In this document: positions 25,399 to 44,451 of the stretch, one piece after another
How positions within the stretch are numbered: position 1 is the first letter of the stretch
Layout of the letters: each line of letters opens with the position of its first letter
Virus record (IMG/VR): IMGVR_UViG_3300042465_000911
Location: 1-60,984 of that record
DNA length: 60,984 nt
Source: a virus
Strand: one strand, 5' to 3'
Program-made: the position numbers and the translations under genes
Notes under the pieces: model-generated
Database searches by the model: none
What the model was told of the DNA's origin: nothing
What the model saw: the letters and a program-made list of their open reading frames with translations, nothing else

Positions 25399-26937
25399 TC
25401 AGTAGTACGCCGCAGAGCGACGTTTAAAAAATCGTGGTTCATCTGCCTCATCCGTGTCTAGCGTGATAAAGCCGCCTTGTCTGAATCGAAGCAGTGCTTG
25501 GCTGGTCGTGTCCACATAGTCGTCGTGTTCGCCCACTGGGAAGGCCGCAACCTCCTCAATTACTTCACGCGCCCAGCGTGTGTCAGGTGCCCACACCATA
25601 CCAGAGGAGAACAAGTCAGCAATAGCCTGCACACGCACCATCTTATCGTTTCCACGGCTCGGTGTAAATTCTTGTACAGGGATGCCCATTGCCCTGAGTT
25701 CTTGGATCAACGGGCCACCTGCCGCCTTTTTCTCCACAATGAAGGCATCGGGTTGCCATTCCTTCCAGTGCTTGAAGGCGACTTGCTTGAGTTCTGGGAA
25801 TGGGATTCGGTCTTTGAAAGCGTCAAGGAGGATAAGCTGGGGCTTGTCGTTCTCCTCCTCGTTGTACCAGACCCCCCAAGTAGTACAGGCAGAATAGTCG
25901 GAGGTTGTTTTGGTTTCATGCGCCGTGTCCCAAGACTGGATGATGTACTCACAAGTGGGCGGTTCATCCCCCTCCCATATCCGCCAGTGCTTTCTGGAGA
26001 TGATCGCCGCCGTATCGCTGGTAGGCTGCTGCATGTACTGCGCGTTCCAGTAGCGGGGATCCATTGAGGACTTGGCAGACTTCAGCGCCTCGAGTGGCCA
26101 CTGCTCCGGCCAGAGGGATTTCTCTTTCTCCGTGTTCTCATGCAGGATGGCTGGAAGCTCCACAATCTCCCAGCGTGGGCTGTCGGGGTTGCTTACCTGA
26201 TACTGTATGAGTCTGCCGGTCAAGTCCAGTGGCCCCCAGCGCGTCATGATGACTATGATCGCACCGCCCGGCATCAGACGCTGCAACGGGCCGGTTTGAA
26301 ACCAACTCCACGCCGTGTCAAACGCTAGACGGCTGTTTGCTTTTACGTCTTGTTCCGAATGCGGGTCGTCGATAACAAAGAGATCAGCCCCGCGACCGGC
26401 AAGAGCACCACCAACGCCAGCCGCATAATACTGACCGCCAGCAGCAGTACTCCACTTTCCAGCAGCCTTCTGGTCATCTGCAACAAGTGTTTGCGGAAAA
26501 AGTTCATGGTACTGCTCATCATCCAGTAAGTTACGAACCCGCCGTCCAAAGTCTTCAGACAGCGACGCAGTGTGCGTCCCCATGATAATCTTCTTGTTGG
26601 GGTAGTTACCTAGAAAGAACGCGGGGAACAGGTAAGACGAGAACTCAGACTTACCCATACGGGGGGCAATGTTGATGATGACGCGCTTCTTTTTGCCTTC
26701 GATCACATCTTGGAATATCTTGGCCAGCTTCCTGTGATGTGGCCCAACCTTGAACCCGGGGTATACGTACTTGGAAAACTCAATCATGTTTGTACGACCG
26801 GCGTTGACGTTGTAGCGTTTCTCACGTTCTTCCAGCATTTCCATAAGCTCCACCTTCTCCGCCAAATTCAAGGTGGGGAGAGCTTTTTGGATTGCCTGAA
26901 TCTCAGTTGGACTCAGTGTCAGATCGTTCAGGTTCAT
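25399..26937 (-). CDS. terL: Terminase large subunit
   Basis: The 512 residues carry both packaging domains. ATPase: Walker A-type IAPRMGKSE at 90-98, Walker B LFVIDD at 186-191 with the catalytic acidic residue next to it, and a coupling motif near MTRWGPLD at 231-238. Nuclease: SWDTAHE with D337, FIVEKK with E402 and EHDDYVD with D472/D473/D476. It translocates DNA into the procapsid and cuts the concatemer. The start overlaps the small subunit by 35 bases. The whole family length is present. Confidence 0.95.
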   Translation of the reverse strand: MNLNDLTLSPTEIQAIQKALPTLNLAEKVELMEMLEEREKRYNVNAGRTNMIEFSKYVYPGFKVGPHHRKLAKIFQDVIEGKKKRVIINIAPRMGKSEFSSYLFPAFFLGNYPNKKIIMGTHTASLSEDFGRRVRNLLDDEQYHELFPQTLVADDQKAAGKWSTAAGGQYYAAGVGGALAGRGADLFVIDDPHSEQDVKANSRLAFDTAWSWFQTGPLQRLMPGGAIIVIMTRWGPLDLTGRLIQYQVSNPDSPRWEIVELPAILHENTEKEKSLWPEQWPLEALKSAKSSMDPRYWNAQYMQQPTSDTAAIISRKHWRIWEGDEPPTCEYIIQSWDTAHETKTTSDYSACTTWGVWYNEEENDKPQLILLDAFKDRIPFPELKQVAFKHWKEWQPDAFIVEKKAAGGPLIQELRAMGIPVQEFTPSRGNDKMVRVQAIADLFSSGMVWAPDTRWAREVIEEVAAFPVGEHDDYVDTTSQALLRFRQGGFITLDTDEADEPRFFKRRSAAYY

Positions 26938-27526
26938 CTGTATCTTGTGAGTGAGTACTAACTTCTTCTATGTCTTCGATTACTTCAGCGTCTTGCACGC
27001 CCATGAACTTGGCCAGCTTGTCTTTGAGCTTGCGGTCGATCTCCTCATCCGTGAGGTCAGTCTTCTTGACTTCAATCTTGTCGGTGAACAGGCCGACTTC
27101 GGTGACCTTACCCAAGAGCCCCAAGGCTTTCAGGCGGATGTTGGCGCTGGGGTTTTCGCATTCTTCCAACAGCTTGGCCACTGTGTAGCCACGAAGCTCT
27201 TTGGCCTGTTGGACAAACTCCCAGTCATAGGCGGTCAGCATCCCAACTAAGTGTTGCACAGCCGCTGGCGTTTTGATCTGAGACAGATGTTCGTGCGTGA
27301 TTTCGCTTGGTGCGGCAGATACTAAGTTAGTGAATGCACCCCGCGCTGCTTTGACTTCTGCTTGGCTGACCACGGTATCTGTGTCTGCCGCACCCAGACT
27401 CTTAAGCCAGTCGGTTGTCTTTACTTGGGCGTCGATCCTATCCGCCGGATGTTCTTTTTCAAGCGGCGTAGGTTTACCAGAGTGGGCAACCACTTCGGGT
27501 TCAAAATCAATAAGGTGTTCTAGCAT
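26903..27526 (-). CDS. terS: Terminase small subunit-type protein
   Basis: The 207 residues are helical. The middle part (MLTAYDWEFVQQAKELRGYT, then NIRLKALGLLGKVTEVGLFT) followed by KIEVKKTDLTDEEIDRKLKD is a pattern I associate with small terminase subunits of podovirus-like phages. The tail is acidic (VIEDIEEVSTHSQDTDEPER). It is the first gene of the leftward late operon, overlaps terL and has a promoter candidate about 30 bases upstream. DNA recognition for packaging is inferred. Confidence 0.75.
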   Translation of the reverse strand: MLEHLIDFEPEVVAHSGKPTPLEKEHPADRIDAQVKTTDWLKSLGAADTDTVVSQAEVKAARGAFTNLVSAAPSEITHEHLSQIKTPAAVQHLVGMLTAYDWEFVQQAKELRGYTVAKLLEECENPSANIRLKALGLLGKVTEVGLFTDKIEVKKTDLTDEEIDRKLKDKLAKFMGVQDAEVIEDIEEVSTHSQDTDEPERSDTESN

Positions 27527-27541
27527 CGGCGCATAAGTCCC

Positions 27542-27570
27542 TTGTACCTGCGATGCGCGGAGTGTATACT
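27542..27570 (+). promoter_or_regulatory. Rightward sigma70-type promoter of the putative small RNA
   Basis: TTGTAC (27542-27547) and TATACT (27565-27570) are separated by exactly 17 bases; the -10 box matches five of six consensus bases. The predicted start is near 27577, just before the structured element that ends in an intrinsic terminator at 27697. No coding frame of quality lies between them. Confidence 0.55.
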
Positions 27571-27590
27571 ATTTCCCAGTGATGCGGCAA
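27563..27590 (-). promoter_or_regulatory. Leftward sigma70-type promoter for the terminase/virion operon
   Basis: On the minus strand TTGCCG and TATACA (27568-27563) are separated by 16 bases, four of six matches each to the consensus boxes. The start point would be near 27555, about 30 bases before the terS ATG. It overlaps the rightward promoter of the small RNA, so the two may compete. Confidence 0.45.
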
Positions 27591-27697
27591 GTTGCGAATT
27601 GGCCTTTGGCCAACCGCAACAGCAGTTGCCGATTGCTTCTCCTCGGTTGTTGGTTCGACCGTTCAGCCCCCCAGTCTCAAGCTGGGGGGTTTTTTTT
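27577..27697 (+). ncRNA. Putative structured small RNA (about 120 nt) with anti-Shine-Dalgarno segment
   Basis: Between a 17-spaced promoter and an intrinsic terminator lies a set of nested perfect stems: CGGCAA (27585-27590) with TTGCCG (27626-27631), GTTGCG (27591-27596) with CGCAAC (27615-27620), and TTGGCC (27599-27604) with GGCCAA (27608-27613) closed by TTT. After them an unpaired stretch, TTGCTTCTCCTC (27633-27644), precedes the terminator hairpin. Its first ten bases are the exact complement of GGAGAAGCAA, the ribosome-binding site in front of genes at 34118, 34486, 40952 and 42418. The layout is that of a trans-acting riboregulator. Existence as a transcript and target pairing are inferences. 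Confidence 0.6.
27667..27697 (+). terminator. Intrinsic terminator of the small RNA
   Basis: CCCCCCAG (27667-27674), a seven-base loop and CTGGGGGG (27682-27689) form a perfect eight-pair GC-rich stem followed by eight T residues. It works only in the rightward direction, because the other side of the stem has no T run. The only sensible upstream transcript is the small RNA. Confidence 0.9.
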
Positions 27698-27716
27698 ATT
27701 TGGCTTTGTCCAACGA

Positions 27717-27747
27717 TTGACACCAAATTTTATAAAATTTTTATAGT
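27717..27747 (+). promoter_or_regulatory. Main rightward early promoter candidate
   Basis: A perfect TTGACA at 27717-27722 is followed by an A/T-rich stretch with TATAGT at 27742-27747 (19-base spacing) or TTATAG/TTTATA at 17-18 bases. It lies 20 bases after the small-RNA terminator and would give the rightward operon a leader of about 220 bases ahead of the first gene at 27977. Confidence 0.55.
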
Positions 27748-29400: not shown

Positions 29401-30168
29401 ATGAAAGAGTTGAAGTACCACATCAGCAACAAAGCGCATTTAGAAACGTATCTCGCCGCCGAGTACAGGAAGGGTGCGTCTGAAGAAACGCTCAAGTATT
29501 TGCGGCGTGAGGGCATGGATTACCTAGCCAAGCGCAAGTCAGAGAACGCAAGACGCAAGCAAGTGGAGCGTATGTGGGACGAACACATTTTACCGCTTCA
29601 AGCGGAAAAGAAACGCATCGTGGCATCCCTCGCCTACCCTACGCACAACCGCAACAACTCAGACCCAAGGCGCATAGCACTCAAGGCATACCTAAAAGTC
29701 ATCGACACTTTGTTGGGCAAGATGCGGCGAGAGGCAACCTGTGTGCCGTTCGATGACCGACCAACCATGACACCCATCGAGTACGCCAAGGCAAAGAACG
29801 TACCCAACAACGGCGAGCATTGGACAGACTTCGTGCCGACCCACATCAAGCAAAGGGTTTGTCAAATGTTTGACGACATACCCTACACACCAAAGGCAAG
29901 GCGCAAGATTCCGTTTGAGCGTGTCGTAGGTGTTGAGTTGCACGAGTTACAGAAAGACCGACTCATCAGGCGCACAGAGAAGGAGCTAGTCAGGTGCAAG
30001 CAAGATGCGCTGTTGAACCCAAGCGATGAAAAGCTACCCGAGCGCATCCAAAAGATTGAAGCCGCCCTTGCCGAGATAGACAAGCTCGAACCCAGCGAGT
30101 TTGTACCGACCACATGGCAGGGGTTGATGAGTAAGCACAGAAACATCATCAAAGATTGGGACGATTAA
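29401..30168 (+). CDS. Early protein of unknown function (255 aa)
   Basis: AAGGAG lies nine bases before the ATG. The protein is charged and helical: SEETLKYLRREGMDYLAKRK, then WDEHILPLQAEKKRIVASLA, a central segment (THIKQRVCQMFDDIPYTPKA) and a coiled-coil end (ERIQKIEAALAEIDKLEPSE). There are no zinc motifs and no membrane segment. It is the longest of the first early genes and is followed immediately by stem-loop copy 3. I do not recognise a family. Confidence 0.72.
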   Translation: MKELKYHISNKAHLETYLAAEYRKGASEETLKYLRREGMDYLAKRKSENARRKQVERMWDEHILPLQAEKKRIVASLAYPTHNRNNSDPRRIALKAYLKVIDTLLGKMRREATCVPFDDRPTMTPIEYAKAKNVPNNGEHWTDFVPTHIKQRVCQMFDDIPYTPKARRKIPFERVVGVELHELQKDRLIRRTEKELVRCKQDALLNPSDEKLPERIQKIEAALAEIDKLEPSEFVPTTWQGLMSKHRNIIKDWDD

Positions 30169-38995: not shown

Positions 38996-40955
38996 ACCAT
39001 TTGACAGGATACTGACCATCGACTTTGAAACTCGGTGGGACAAGAGGGACTACACCTTATCCAAACTAACAACCGAGGAGTACATACGTGACAAGAGGTT
39101 CAAGGCTTTCGGAGCGTGCATACATGAATATGGAACTGACAACCCAACTGAGTGGGTTGGAGGAGATGGACTACCTGAATTCTTTTCAGGAATCGACTGG
39201 GGACGAACCGCCATGCTTGCGCATAACGCACAGTTCGATATATCCATCCTTGAGTGGGTCTACGATTCTCACCCAGCCTTTATATTCGACACGCTATCAA
39301 TGGGGCGCGCTCTTCGAGGCGTGGAAGTGGGGAACAGTCTCGCGAAGCTGGCGCTCGACTTCGGACTTCAACCAAAGGGAACGGCAGTTAACAGCACTGA
39401 TGGCCTCACATCAATATCGCCAGAGATTGAAAGAGAGCTTGCCGAGTATTGCGCCCATGATGTGTACCTGTGCGAAGAGATTTTCAAGCGACTCGTTGAT
39501 GGGTATCCCAAATCCGAACTGCGTTTGATCGACATGACGCTCAAGATGTACACACGCCCACAGCTTGAGCTTGACAGCAAGATGCTCATCAAAGCATTAA
39601 CAGAAGAAGGAGAAGCGCGTGAAGGACTACTACAAAGACTCGGCATACAAGAAGTTGAGCTTGCGTCGAATCCGAAGTTTGCAAACATACTTCAAAGCCT
39701 CGGGGTTGTTCCCCCGACTAAAGTCAGTAAAACTACCGGCAAAGAAACGCTCGCTCTTGCAAAGAATGACGCCTTGTTCCAAGCGTTGCTCAACGGTGAA
39801 CGTGAAGACGTTGCCCTCCTTTGTGAAGCACGCCTTAAAGTTAAGTCCACCACCGAACGCACGCGTGCGCAACGGTTCCTTGATATCTCCCAGCGTGGCA
39901 AACTACCTGTTCCGCTATCGTATTACGGTGCTCTCTCGGGACGCTGGACGGCGGCAAAGGGGAGTGCAATCAACATGCAAAACCTCAAGCGAGGCAGTTT
40001 CCTACGCAAAGCGATTATGGCTCCCGAAGGGTACCAACTGGTCGTGGGGGATTTGTCTCAAATTGAACCGCGAGTGCTTGCGTGGCTTAGTGATTACCAA
40101 GAGATGCTTGACATCTTCAGGGGAGGTGGTGACCCTTACGCGGCGTTCGGCGCTCAAATGTTCAATATACTGGGGCTCACTAAAGAAAGTCACCCAGAAC
40201 TTCGCCAGTCTGCGAAGAGCGCTTTGCTCGGTTGCGGATACGGCTTGGGCTGGGCATCGTTTGCTTCGCAGCTACTCACGGGCTTCCTTGGCGCTCCGCC
40301 GCAAAGGTATGACAAAGCCTTCGCTAAAACGCTCGGGGTCGATCAGGCGTATGCCCAGAAGTTCGTTGACTGGGAAGACAACGTGACCAAGATGCTGGAG
40401 ATTCCCCACACCTGCACCGACCAAGAGCTACTGACTCACTGCCTTGCGGCCAAGAAGATTATTGACATCTACCGCGCCACTGCCCACCCCGTGGCTACCT
40501 TCTGGGACATGTGCTCACAGCTTATTGAGGACAGCCTGTATGGGGGTAAGGTGTACCAGTACAAGTGTTTGACATTCAGCAAGGAACGTATAGAATTACC
40601 CAATGGGATGAGCTTGCTCTACCCACAGTTGCGACGCGAGAAAGATGACAAAGGTAGGAGCCAGTGGGTATACGGGCCAAACGCTACCAAGCTGTATGCA
40701 GGGAAGGTGACCAATAACGTAACGCAGGCCGTTGCGCGTATTGTCATGACCGATGGAATGTTGAGGGTAACCAAGAAGTACCCCGTGGTTGGCACAGTGC
40801 ATGATGAACAGATCGTGTTGGTGCCTGATGATGAGGTCGCTAGCGCCAAGACTTGGGTCTTGGAGCAGATGACTATGGAACCGAGATATATGCCGGGGAT
40901 ACCCTTGGCCGCTGACGGTGGTGCGCACCGTAGATATGGAGAAGCAAAACAATGA
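38988..40955 (+). CDS. polA: Family A DNA polymerase with 3'-5' exonuclease
   Basis: I use ATG 38988; a TTG one codon upstream is less likely. Exonuclease motifs: Exo I TIDFETRWD (~10-18), Exo II LAHNAQFD (~77-84) and Exo III YCAHDVYLCEEIF (~150-162). Polymerase motifs: A VGDLSQIEPRVLAWL (~353-367), B RQSAKSALLGCGYGLG (~404-419) and C GTVHDEQIVLVP (~601-612). At 655 residues it is a compact replicative polymerase without a 5' nuclease. It replicates the phage genome with the primase-helicase and SSB-like protein encoded downstream. Confidence 0.95.
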   Translation: MTKPFDRILTIDFETRWDKRDYTLSKLTTEEYIRDKRFKAFGACIHEYGTDNPTEWVGGDGLPEFFSGIDWGRTAMLAHNAQFDISILEWVYDSHPAFIFDTLSMGRALRGVEVGNSLAKLALDFGLQPKGTAVNSTDGLTSISPEIERELAEYCAHDVYLCEEIFKRLVDGYPKSELRLIDMTLKMYTRPQLELDSKMLIKALTEEGEAREGLLQRLGIQEVELASNPKFANILQSLGVVPPTKVSKTTGKETLALAKNDALFQALLNGEREDVALLCEARLKVKSTTERTRAQRFLDISQRGKLPVPLSYYGALSGRWTAAKGSAINMQNLKRGSFLRKAIMAPEGYQLVVGDLSQIEPRVLAWLSDYQEMLDIFRGGGDPYAAFGAQMFNILGLTKESHPELRQSAKSALLGCGYGLGWASFASQLLTGFLGAPPQRYDKAFAKTLGVDQAYAQKFVDWEDNVTKMLEIPHTCTDQELLTHCLAAKKIIDIYRATAHPVATFWDMCSQLIEDSLYGGKVYQYKCLTFSKERIELPNGMSLLYPQLRREKDDKGRSQWVYGPNATKLYAGKVTNNVTQAVARIVMTDGMLRVTKKYPVVGTVHDEQIVLVPDDEVASAKTWVLEQMTMEPRYMPGIPLAADGGAHRRYGEAKQ

Positions 40956-41272
40956 CAGCAAGAACAAAAACACCCATCCCCCGCCGCATCCGTGTCGGGG
41001 CCAGACAGTACTCAGTTGACATCGTGGAGACCATGCTGCGCAAACGTGACATGGCGCGGGTCTACTACGGCGACAAGAAGATCGAGCTTGGCCAGTTCAG
41101 TAATGTGTCCGGCAAGAAGTTCGATGACGACCGAGTACAGGAGAACTTCTGGCATGAGGTAACTCATGCAATCCTGTACGACATGGGCGAGCACAAGCTC
41201 AACAGCAACGAGAAGTTTGTAGTCGAGTTCTCAAAGCGACTAGCTAAAGCAATCAAATCAGCGAGGTTCTAA
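40952..41272 (+). CDS. Small zincin-type metalloprotease-like protein (106 aa)
   Basis: Residues 63-77 contain NFWHEVTHAILYDMG, a HExxH zinc motif with H68, E69 and H72; E87 in NSNEKFVVEF could be the third ligand. The N-terminal half is beta-rich and basic (RRIRVGARQYSVDIVE). The same short protein type sits beside phage replication genes elsewhere, to my knowledge, with unknown targets. The ribosome-binding site GGAGAAGCAA is one of the exact partners of the small RNA. Confidence 0.75.
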   Translation: MTARTKTPIPRRIRVGARQYSVDIVETMLRKRDMARVYYGDKKIELGQFSNVSGKKFDDDRVQENFWHEVTHAILYDMGEHKLNSNEKFVVEFSKRLAKAIKSARF

Positions 41273-42404: not shown

Positions 42405-42417
42405 ACGGAGAAGCAAC

Positions 42418-43977
42418 TTGGAAATCCTTGAAGACAAGGCACTAATATTTAGAACTAGAAACCCAGAAAAGTACAGCATCATTCCTAAACACAAAGTCAT
42501 CGAACGTGATGACGGTGGGTACGATGTCGCTGTCTACTGGGGACTAGATGAATGTAGGGTGCTACGCAACCTCGGCGTGAAAGATGTGCCCTCGCCAATC
42601 ACACGCAAGTACAAGTGGCCCGGTCGTTACAAACCTATGGCGCATCAGATGGAGACTGCCGCCTTCTTGACCATGCACCGCAAGGCGTTTGTGTTCTCAG
42701 AACCTGGCACTGGCAAGACGCTCTCTGCACTATGGGCGGCTGACTACCTGATGCAACGTGGTGAGGTGCGCAGGTGTTTGATCTTGTGTCCACTATCTAT
42801 CATGCAGTCTGCATGGCTGGCAGACTTGAGCAACAGCATCATCCATCGCTCGGCCATCGTCGCTCACCATACGCAGGCTAGTCGCCGCATCGAGATGATT
42901 CAACAAGACTACGAGTTCGTCATCGCTAACTACGATGGCTTGAACTTGATAGCTGACGAGGTTAAGAACGATGGTAGGTTCGACCTTGTGATCGTCGATG
43001 AGGCCAACGCATACAAGACGGTGACGACCAAGCGTTGGAAGGCATTGAAGTCCATCCTCACACCCAAGACCCACGTATGGATGATGACTGGTACACCTGC
43101 ATCGCAGTCACCAGCAGATGCCTACGGCTTGGCCAAGATCGTCAACCCCGAGGGCGTACCCAACTTCTACACATCGTGGCGCGACAAAGTGATGAACAAG
43201 GTCACTCTATACAAGTGGGCGGCAAAGCACAACGCCGCTGACCTAGTGCATGAAGCACTGCAACCAGCAATACGCTTTAGCAAAGCGCAGTGTCTTGACT
43301 TACCCCCAGTGCTGACCACCACACGTGAGGTTCCCCTCACACCACAGCAAGCCAAGTATTACAACCTGCTCAAAGACAGGATGCTGGTGCAAGCCGCAGG
43401 CGAAACAATCAGCGCAGTCAACGCTGCCGCTGGTGTGAGTAAGCTGTTGCAGATAAGTTGTGGCGCTGTGTACACCGACGAGAAAGAAGTGATTGAGTTT
43501 GATGCCGCCCCCCGTCTTGGTGTGCTGGAAGAAATCTTGGATGAGACTACACGCAAGGTCATCATCTTTGCGTTGTTCAGGTCAAGCATCGACACCATAC
43601 AGACGCACCTGACCAAGAAGAACATTGCCAACGAGTGCATACACGGCGGTATCACACCCAGTAAACGTGCCGACATCATCCACCGCTTCCAACATGAACC
43701 TGACCCTCGCGTATTGGTTATGCAACCGCAGGCTACGGCGCACGGCATCACGTTGACTGCGGCTGACACGGTAGTTTTCTTTGGCCCACTGATGAGCGTG
43801 GAGCAGTACATCCAGTGCATTGCACGGGCTGACCGCAAGGGACAGAACTCCGACAAGGTGACTGTCATCCACATCCAAGGCTCACCGATTGAGCGCAAGA
43901 TGTTCAAAGCATTGGAGGGCAAGGTAAGTGATAACTCACTTCTTACCCAAATGTTTGAGATAGAAATAAATTCATGA
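42418..43977 (+). CDS. SF2 (SNF2/DEAD-like) DNA helicase/ATPase, TTG start
   Basis: The TTG start at 42418 is supported by GGAGAAGCAAC in front and by the family length (519 residues). Motifs: Q-like H76Q77, Walker A SEPGTGKT (94-101), Walker B variant VDEAN (193-197), motif III MTGTPAS (223-229), a second RecA domain with IIFALFRSSID (~373-383), and motif VI QCIARADRKGQ (~463-473). Phage enzymes of this type remodel replication forks or unwind branched DNA. It is followed by the SSB-like pair. Confidence 0.9.
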   Translation: MEILEDKALIFRTRNPEKYSIIPKHKVIERDDGGYDVAVYWGLDECRVLRNLGVKDVPSPITRKYKWPGRYKPMAHQMETAAFLTMHRKAFVFSEPGTGKTLSALWAADYLMQRGEVRRCLILCPLSIMQSAWLADLSNSIIHRSAIVAHHTQASRRIEMIQQDYEFVIANYDGLNLIADEVKNDGRFDLVIVDEANAYKTVTTKRWKALKSILTPKTHVWMMTGTPASQSPADAYGLAKIVNPEGVPNFYTSWRDKVMNKVTLYKWAAKHNAADLVHEALQPAIRFSKAQCLDLPPVLTTTREVPLTPQQAKYYNLLKDRMLVQAAGETISAVNAAAGVSKLLQISCGAVYTDEKEVIEFDAAPRLGVLEEILDETTRKVIIFALFRSSIDTIQTHLTKKNIANECIHGGITPSKRADIIHRFQHEPDPRVLVMQPQATAHGITLTAADTVVFFGPLMSVEQYIQCIARADRKGQNSDKVTVIHIQGSPIERKMFKALEGKVSDNSLLTQMFEIEINS

Positions 43978-44046
43978 AAGGAGTTGCAAAACAAACGCAA
44001 ACGTGTAAACTGTCCAACCTTAGACAAACAATAAACAGGAGAAGTA

Positions 44047-44451
44047 ATGGAAGACACCGACATTCCGCTCGACAAACTCGTGAAGATTTACCGTAAGATA
44101 AAAATGGAAATCGACACCATGACCCAAGAGTACGACACCAAACTGGAAGTGCTCAAGGGGCAACAAGACGAAATCAAATTTGAAATTAAAGACCGTATGA
44201 AGGCGCTGGGCGTCACATCGGTCAAGAGTCCCTTTGGGACTGTATCCATGCGTACCTCGACTACGTACACAACAAATGACTGGGCTTCGTTCAAGGAGTT
44301 TGTCCTTGAGCACGGCGCTGTTGACCTGTTGTTCAAACGTATCGCGCAGGCAAACATGGCGCAGTTTCTTGAAGAGAACCCGGGGGTAGTACCACCGGGG
44401 CTGAACTCTGTAACGGAGTTCAACATAGTCGTAACCAAACCAACCAAGTGA
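44047..44451 (+). CDS. Replication-module protein of unknown function (134 aa)
   Basis: CAGGAGAAG precedes the ATG. An N-terminal coiled coil (LVKIYRKIKMEIDTMTQEYD, then LKGQQDEIKFEIKDRMKALG) is followed by SVKSPFGTVSMRTSTTYTTN and DWASFKEFVLEHGAVDLLFK, and the ending VVPPGLNSVTEFN. This type regularly precedes ssDNA-binding genes in phage replication modules. It may be a partner or nuclease inhibitor (Gam-like); the function is not established. Confidence 0.7.
   Translation: MEDTDIPLDKLVKIYRKIKMEIDTMTQEYDTKLEVLKGQQDEIKFEIKDRMKALGVTSVKSPFGTVSMRTSTTYTTNDWASFKEFVLEHGAVDLLFKRIAQANMAQFLEENPGVVPPGLNSVTEFNIVVTKPTK

Follow-up and report, generated by a model that had tools for sequence, protein, structure and literature searches.

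What is the function of an element of 121 bases that sits, without an evident gene, between the divergent late and early gene arrays of an uncultured tailed phage? The window, that is, the whole stretch of DNA analyzed here, is a 60,984-bp IMG/VR virus record. Its late genes run leftward (large terminase, 25399-26937; putative small terminase, 26903-27526), and its early and replication genes run rightward from 27977 and include those for DNA polymerase A, an SNF2-like helicase, a PD-(D/E)XK nuclease and a DUF927 primase-like protein. An initial annotation, made from the letters alone, had proposed that the element encodes a trans-acting RNA directed against the phage's own ribosome-binding sites. 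That reading is supported by the conserved structure of the element, by complements at early start sites in excess of shuffled controls and by co-variation between the RNA and these sites; repression itself is inferred, and there are no transcript data. We consider it highly likely that 27577-27697 encodes a small non-coding RNA (sRNA) and that this RNA represses, in trans and by antisense pairing, a particular group of early and replication genes of the phage itself.

A phage family known from metagenomes

Relatives were collected with putative small-terminase proteins as queries in five scans of IMG/VR, which yielded 312 loci with sufficient upstream sequence, 199 of them distinct; all element counts refer to these distinct loci, each taken from upstream of the putative small-terminase gene. 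Gene calling covered 21 full records, with start codons taken from a home-made gene caller.

26903..27526, minus strand: putative small terminase gene, adjoining the large terminase gene; identity by position only; query for relatives

The product of this gene is conserved and has no PHROG match, and its more than 590 related loci in IMG/VR mark a large phage family. The search of a phage collection turned up no isolate of the family: neither the region nor the putative small terminase had a relative among isolated phages by blastn and tblastn, and the primase had only distant matches there. A scan of bacterial genomes with a profile of the putative small terminase found no host.

A conserved small RNA gene

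27542..27570, plus strand: sRNA promoter (-35 TTGTAC at 27542-27547, 17-nt spacer, -10 TATACT at 27565-27570)
27577..27697, plus strand: small RNA of about 121 nt; its 5' end is deduced from the distance to the promoter
27578..27637, plus strand: 5' hairpin (stem 1); the UUGCU half of the linker is held in its outermost helix, 27578-27583/27632-27637
27644..27661, plus strand: second hairpin, from the fold; its sequence varies in the relatives folded
27665..27697, plus strand: intrinsic terminator, 11-bp stem followed by a T-run

The promoter with 17-nt spacing and the strong intrinsic terminator that had been described for this locus both withstand comparison. A generic promoter scanner missed the promoter because its -35 box fits at only 3 of 6 positions; the pattern TTG-N15-19-TANACT nevertheless recurs in 195 of the 199 relatives, with a spacer of exactly 17 in 184, as against 3.6% of shuffled sequences. 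A GC-rich hairpin with a T-run is likewise found in the aligned relatives' terminators. The element as a whole is present at all 199 distinct loci (195 were recognized by a simple motif, the other four on inspection), and each of the 21 fully read records has one copy per genome. Open reading frames of 68-73 aa do overlap it in the window, but they are not conserved genes, since the element can be as short as 73 nt and as long as 136 nt in relatives. With its own promoter and intrinsic terminator and without a conserved open reading frame, the element meets a first criterion for the sRNA class.

The fold of the window element has a minimum free energy of -57 kcal/mol and a z-score of -5.95, which none of 200 shuffles equaled. 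Conservation of the stems in relatives, which the initial annotation had set as a check, was borne out: all 56 non-redundant copies have z < -2, each beating its shuffles. The three nested perfect stems reported for the 5' hairpin need correction, as there are four helices and the outermost contains two G-U pairs. Across relatives, the sequence and length of stem 1 vary while its design is constant, and the linker that follows is nearly constant. RNAalifold on a MAFFT alignment was uninformative because of this variation in stem 1 length, and it was replaced by per-sequence folding and counts of pairing partners.

An exposed linker with a proposed toehold

27633..27644, plus strand: target-recognition linker TTGCTTCTCCTC (complement GAGGAGAAGCAA)
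27638..27643, plus strand: unpaired UCUCCU, the proposed toehold meeting the Shine-Dalgarno sequence; opening cost 0.02 kcal/mol

The pyrimidine linker reads (T)TGCTT(T)CTCCT across relatives. All 12 of its bases had been taken as unpaired, which holds for UCUCCU and fails for UUGCU: 27632-27637 (AUUGCU) pairs with 27578-27583, so that only 27638-27643 is free, and opening the entire linker in the window costs 5.8 kcal/mol, compared with almost nothing for UCUCCU. In the 56 non-redundant relatives, the mean probability of being unpaired is 0.93 for CUCC and 0.13 for UUGCU. The stem partners of the linker bases vary between A and G and between C and U with pairing kept, and all four copies with an A in place of G in the linker (UUAC) have U as its partner. 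A stable fold with an accessible seed, kept among relatives, is a second feature expected of an sRNA. With UCUCCU alone unpaired and UUGCU held at the base of stem 1, this architecture suggests a toehold mechanism.

Complementary start sites in the window

31558..31582, plus strand: target start site of a 451-aa gene of unknown function, 31580-32935; -19.3 kcal/mol
34107..34120, plus strand: target start site AGGAGAAGCAA-A-ATG of a 123-aa gene, 34118-34489 (MazG-like PHROG match); 11-nt exact complement, duplex -18.2 kcal/mol
34475..34488, plus strand: target start site of a 77-aa gene, 34486-34719; 11-nt exact complement, -18.1 kcal/mol
34902..34916, plus strand: near-target start site GAGGAGAAGTAA-ATG of gene 34914-35156; 9-nt exact complement plus G-U pairing, -19.8 kcal/mol
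36195..36207, plus strand: GGAGAAGCAA abutting an in-frame GTG inside gene 36130-36645
40938..40954, plus strand: target start site of a 106-aa HExxH (SprT/WLM-like) gene, 40952-41272; -17.0 kcal/mol
42407..42420, plus strand: target start site of a 519-aa SNF2-like helicase gene, 42418-43977 (TTG start); -17.0 kcal/mol
44038..44049, plus strand: target start site AGGAGAAGTA-ATG of a 134-aa Gam-like gene, 44047-44451; -17.5 kcal/mol

The ten bases GGAGAAGCAA, whose complement occupies 27633-27642 of the element, occur exactly on the plus strand at 34107, 34475, 36195, 40938 and 42407, as had been claimed; four of these sites are 1-4 nt upstream of a start codon, and the near-match claimed at 34902 is also real. 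With at most one mismatch there are 19 sites where 4.4 are expected, a number that none of 100 shuffles reached. The gene with the internal GTG has a partly matching site at its own ATG as well, and both sites are found in the near relatives G001-G004. Its protein has a weak match to Penicillinase_R (BlaI-like), and its in-frame starts are ATG at 36130 and GTG at 36205. The site at 40938 overlaps the end of the DNA polymerase gene, and its conservation is partly coding. The protein encoded there, at 40952-41272, has an invariant HExxH and SprT/WLM-like matches in its orthologues, and it represents a small phage metallopeptidase-like gene within the sRNA regulon. The 451-aa product of 31580-32935 is a conserved, cysteine-rich early protein, also in the regulon; its AlphaFold model has a pTM of 0.41 and matches uncharacterised phage proteins only.

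A putative early regulon in relatives

Early and late start sites of the 21 records were compared with each phage's own linker, with spacer-shuffled sites as controls, a comparison with shuffled sequences that the initial annotation had also proposed. Complementarity at early sites exceeds the controls in most genomes. Early sites with a complement of at least 10 nt number 14 in G010 (shuffled mean 1.8), 10 in G008 (1.9), 7 in G007 (1.4), 7 in G004 (0.4) and 4 in the window (0.7); late sites have none in any of the 21 records. In several lineages the linker CATTTGCTTTCTCCTT exactly complements AAGGAGAAAGCAAATG, start codon included, and in G010 the AAGGAGAAAGCAAATG start site precedes several early genes.

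The regulon was defined by clustering the early genes by homology. Strong linker matches are found at orthologues of the SNF2-like helicase in 11 of 11 genomes, of the Gam-like 134-aa protein in 10 of 11, of the SprT-like 106-aa protein in 10 of 11 and of the 451-aa protein in 11 of 13; the SprT-like site overlaps the DNA polymerase gene end in some phages and is therefore partly coding-constrained. No match was detected for the primase (0/10), the exonuclease (0/11), the HNH protein (0/11) or the 322-aa protein (0/11), and DNA polymerase start sites were matched in only 1 of 10 genomes. An early protein of unknown function (29401-30168 in the window) is present in all 21 records and has a linker match in none (0/21). 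A seed that complements several unlinked mRNAs beyond chance is a third criterion of the sRNA class, and it is met here.

Co-variation of linker and targets

The linker occurs as CTTCTCC, as CTTTCTCC and in rarer forms. Among the 98 loci that were informative, GGAGAAAG sites are in the majority at every one of the 44 with a CTTTCTCC-type linker, and the 30 GGAGAAG-majority loci have exclusively CTTCTCC-type linkers; 24 CTTCTCC-type loci are nonetheless GGAGAAAG-majority. Across 96 loci, 195 exact complements of at least 11 nt were observed, compared with a mean of 110 and a maximum of 144 in 2000 permutations of the linkers. The rarer forms have their own counterparts: GGAGAGAGA is seen at four of the 92 start sites from loci with CTCTCT/GTTTCTC-class linkers and at none of the 1686 others, and a GGAGAAAAG[CT] site is found once among 40 in the CTTTTCTCC linker class and nowhere else in the set. 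In the CTTTTCTCC-class lineage, the orthologous Gam-like gene reads GGAGAAAAGTA. At the helicase of G004, the linker AGATGCTTCTCC faces GGAGAAGCATCT, and neighbours with the linker GTTGCTTCTCC have GGAGAAGCAAC.

Orthologous sites gave the same picture. Helicase orthologues of 33 phages pair with their own linker at -18.5 kcal/mol, as against -14.9 kcal/mol for permuted linkers, and Gam-like orthologues of 34 phages at -17.8 as against -16.0 kcal/mol; in neither case were any of 2000 permutations as good. For primase orthologues, the own linker was no better than permuted ones. There are also exceptions. The G009/L304-type clade has CTTCTCC linkers yet mostly GGAGAAAG sites; a toggled-linker test did not favour the own linker in G009, G012 and G017-G019; and lineages with TACTTCTCC lack an exact GGAGAAGTA site (0/62). 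Tree-based independent pairs point in the right direction and never contradict it, but linker changes are too few for significance, and the linker permutations were not corrected for relatedness. For these two reasons, the co-variation, as judged from the sequences, is a strong association, short of a finished phylogenetic test. Compensatory change of seed and target, a fourth criterion of an sRNA, is thus met, albeit with too few independent phylogenetic contrasts for significance.

A putative overlapping leftward promoter

27561..27590, minus strand: putative leftward (late-side) promoter (-10 TACACT at 27566-27561, 18-nt spacer, -35 TTGCCG at 27590-27585); function inferred

The -10 box of this putative promoter overlaps that of the sRNA, and a leftward TTG-N17-19-TA[CT]A[CT]T directed toward the terminase genes is present in 170 of the 199 relatives, compared with 2.9% of shuffled sequences. 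The overlap with a late promoter noted previously therefore stands; the suggestion attached to it, that the RNA acts when the late genes turn on, lacks support in that form, as overlapping promoters would rather compete. Because such competition is expected, the sRNA is probably tied to the early/late decision, with the sequence leaving the direction undecided.

Directly past the sRNA terminator, at 27708-27721, is the palindromic, operator-like GTCCAACGATTGAC (GTCTAACGTTAGAC in many relatives), which is followed by an AT-rich stretch ahead of the early genes. At this palindrome, 129 of 199 relatives match GTC-N8-10-GAC, a count for which there is no background rate. The palindrome is a possible repressor operator of an early promoter.

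Discussion

Three observations underlie our interpretation: the promoter, the structured RNA and the terminator are universal in the phage family; the linker fits an early regulon and not the late genes or several other early genes; and linker and sites co-vary. The sRNA very probably serves the phage as an inbuilt brake on translation, and nothing of this kind has been described for these phages. In the mechanism that we infer, the exposed UCUCCU would contact the Shine-Dalgarno sequence of a target, and pairing would next spread into UUGCU(U), displacing the weak, G-U-rich base of stem 1. The resulting duplex would extend across the spacer, taking in the start codon in some lineages; the 30S subunit would be excluded, and translation would be reduced. 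The most likely purpose would be a feedback brake or timer that limits the SNF2-like helicase, the Gam-like, SprT-like and 451-aa proteins and several small early proteins.

Known phage antisense RNAs mostly control one gene or host genes. The C4 antisense RNA of P1/P7 and the sar RNA of P22 act at the ribosome-binding site of a phage gene and prevent its translation (reviewed in PMC12197685), as we infer for the element, but they serve temperate phages and have a single target (ant), whereas the element has many unlinked targets with a common motif. VpdS of phage VP882 and PreS of phage lambda are, like the element, phage-encoded trans-acting sRNAs, active during development (PMC12197685); they depend on Hfq, PreS targets the host dnaN and VpdS both host and phage mRNAs, and no universal anti-start-site linker has been described for them. 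The closest architecture is bacterial. Neisseria NmsRA/NmsRB (NgncR_162/163) have three stem-loops with a UC-rich, single-stranded anti-Shine-Dalgarno segment after stem-loop 1, and several mRNAs are repressed by a single such RNA through pairing at their Shine-Dalgarno regions (PMC5362039). The element shares the three stem-loops, the UC-rich segment and the multiple mRNA targets; unlike NmsRA/NmsRB, which are chromosomal, have metabolic targets and contain two anti-Shine-Dalgarno segments, it is phage-encoded and directed at the phage's own early genes. RNAs of the Betaproteobacteria toxic small RNA family (RF02278; ncS27, ncS03 and the homologous Bordetella S17) similarly combine hairpins with unpaired, CU-rich stretches whose sequence is the reverse complement of ribosome-binding sites (PMC5688073; PMC11722255), but they lack the large 5' stem, are host genes and have broad predicted targets.

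The element has no Rfam match at the gathering threshold. Membership was rejected for NmsRb (RF02877; 23.1 bits against a gathering score of 52), anti-hemB (RF02837; 22.1 against 49.5) and the Betaproteobacteria toxic sRNA (RF02278; 20.5 against 50), and C4 antisense RNA (RF01695) gave no match in the region up to E = 10. Our best reading, by analogy, is that the element would work like Neisseria NmsR or the phage P1 C4 RNA and is a member of neither. In the open-access literature, to which the search was confined, no phage RNA came to light that targets a start-site motif common to the genes of an early regulon.

These resemblances raise the possibility that the RNA is a copy or mimic of beta-proteobacterial anti-Shine-Dalgarno sRNAs that mainly hits host mRNAs and rewires or shuts down host translation, with phage targets secondary. 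The sub-threshold matches to NmsRb, anti-hemB and the Betaproteobacteria toxic sRNA are consistent with such an origin, as is the use of single-stranded, CU-rich anti-Shine-Dalgarno segments by those RNAs (PMC5362039, PMC5688073); changes in the linker, however, are mirrored in the phage's own start sites, which would not be expected of a purely host-directed RNA, and we regard this explanation as unlikely.

Less credible still, and indeed very improbable, is that the linker merely mirrors a common Shine-Dalgarno type, the caveat raised by the initial annotation, with the start-site matches arising by chance and the RNA having another role. Any CUCC stretch pairs with GGAG, and pairing with the 16S tail is indeed stronger at early than at late start sites. 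The match nevertheless runs into GCAA(ATG), past the reach of 16S complementarity, and is abolished by shuffling the spacer; other early genes in the same genomes are unmatched, orthologous sites prefer their own linker, and the linker co-varies in both length and sequence with the target spacers.

Certain sRNAs activate translation. That the same RNA and targets are involved but pairing activates translation or stabilizes the mRNA is a reading to which we give scarcely any weight, as pairing covers the Shine-Dalgarno sequence and often the start codon, a classical repressive geometry that has been demonstrated for NmsRA by mutagenesis and gfp reporters (PMC5362039). The least plausible alternative, that the element is a cis-acting or DNA-level feature (an early leader or attenuator, an antisense to the late leader, or a packaging site) and not a trans RNA, can appeal to its position between the divergent arrays next to the terminase genes, to the terminator ahead of the early genes and to the operator-like palindrome after it, but is opposed by the element's own conserved promoter, by a stem 1 that varies in length and sequence beside a nearly constant linker, by a linker that tracks start sites as far as ~17 kb away, and by the putative leftward promoter, which would start upstream of the sRNA and so give non-overlapping transcripts.

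The reading of a trans-acting repressor of early genes can be extended to a universally conserved, phage-encoded master brake, in which one sRNA would control early genes as a coordinated regulon by way of a start-site motif that they share (the whole of AAGGAGAAAGCAAATG in some lineages), with toehold activation, co-evolution of RNA and regulon, and an early/late timer set by the overlapping -10 box; we see the case for this complete picture as evenly balanced. For data that come from metagenomes alone, the record of seed-target co-evolution makes an unusually strong case for RNA-RNA pairing, and it predicts each phage's regulon from about 12 bases. An entire early regulon appears to be under the control of one phage RNA, and that RNA is present in all sampled members of a widespread, uncultured family.
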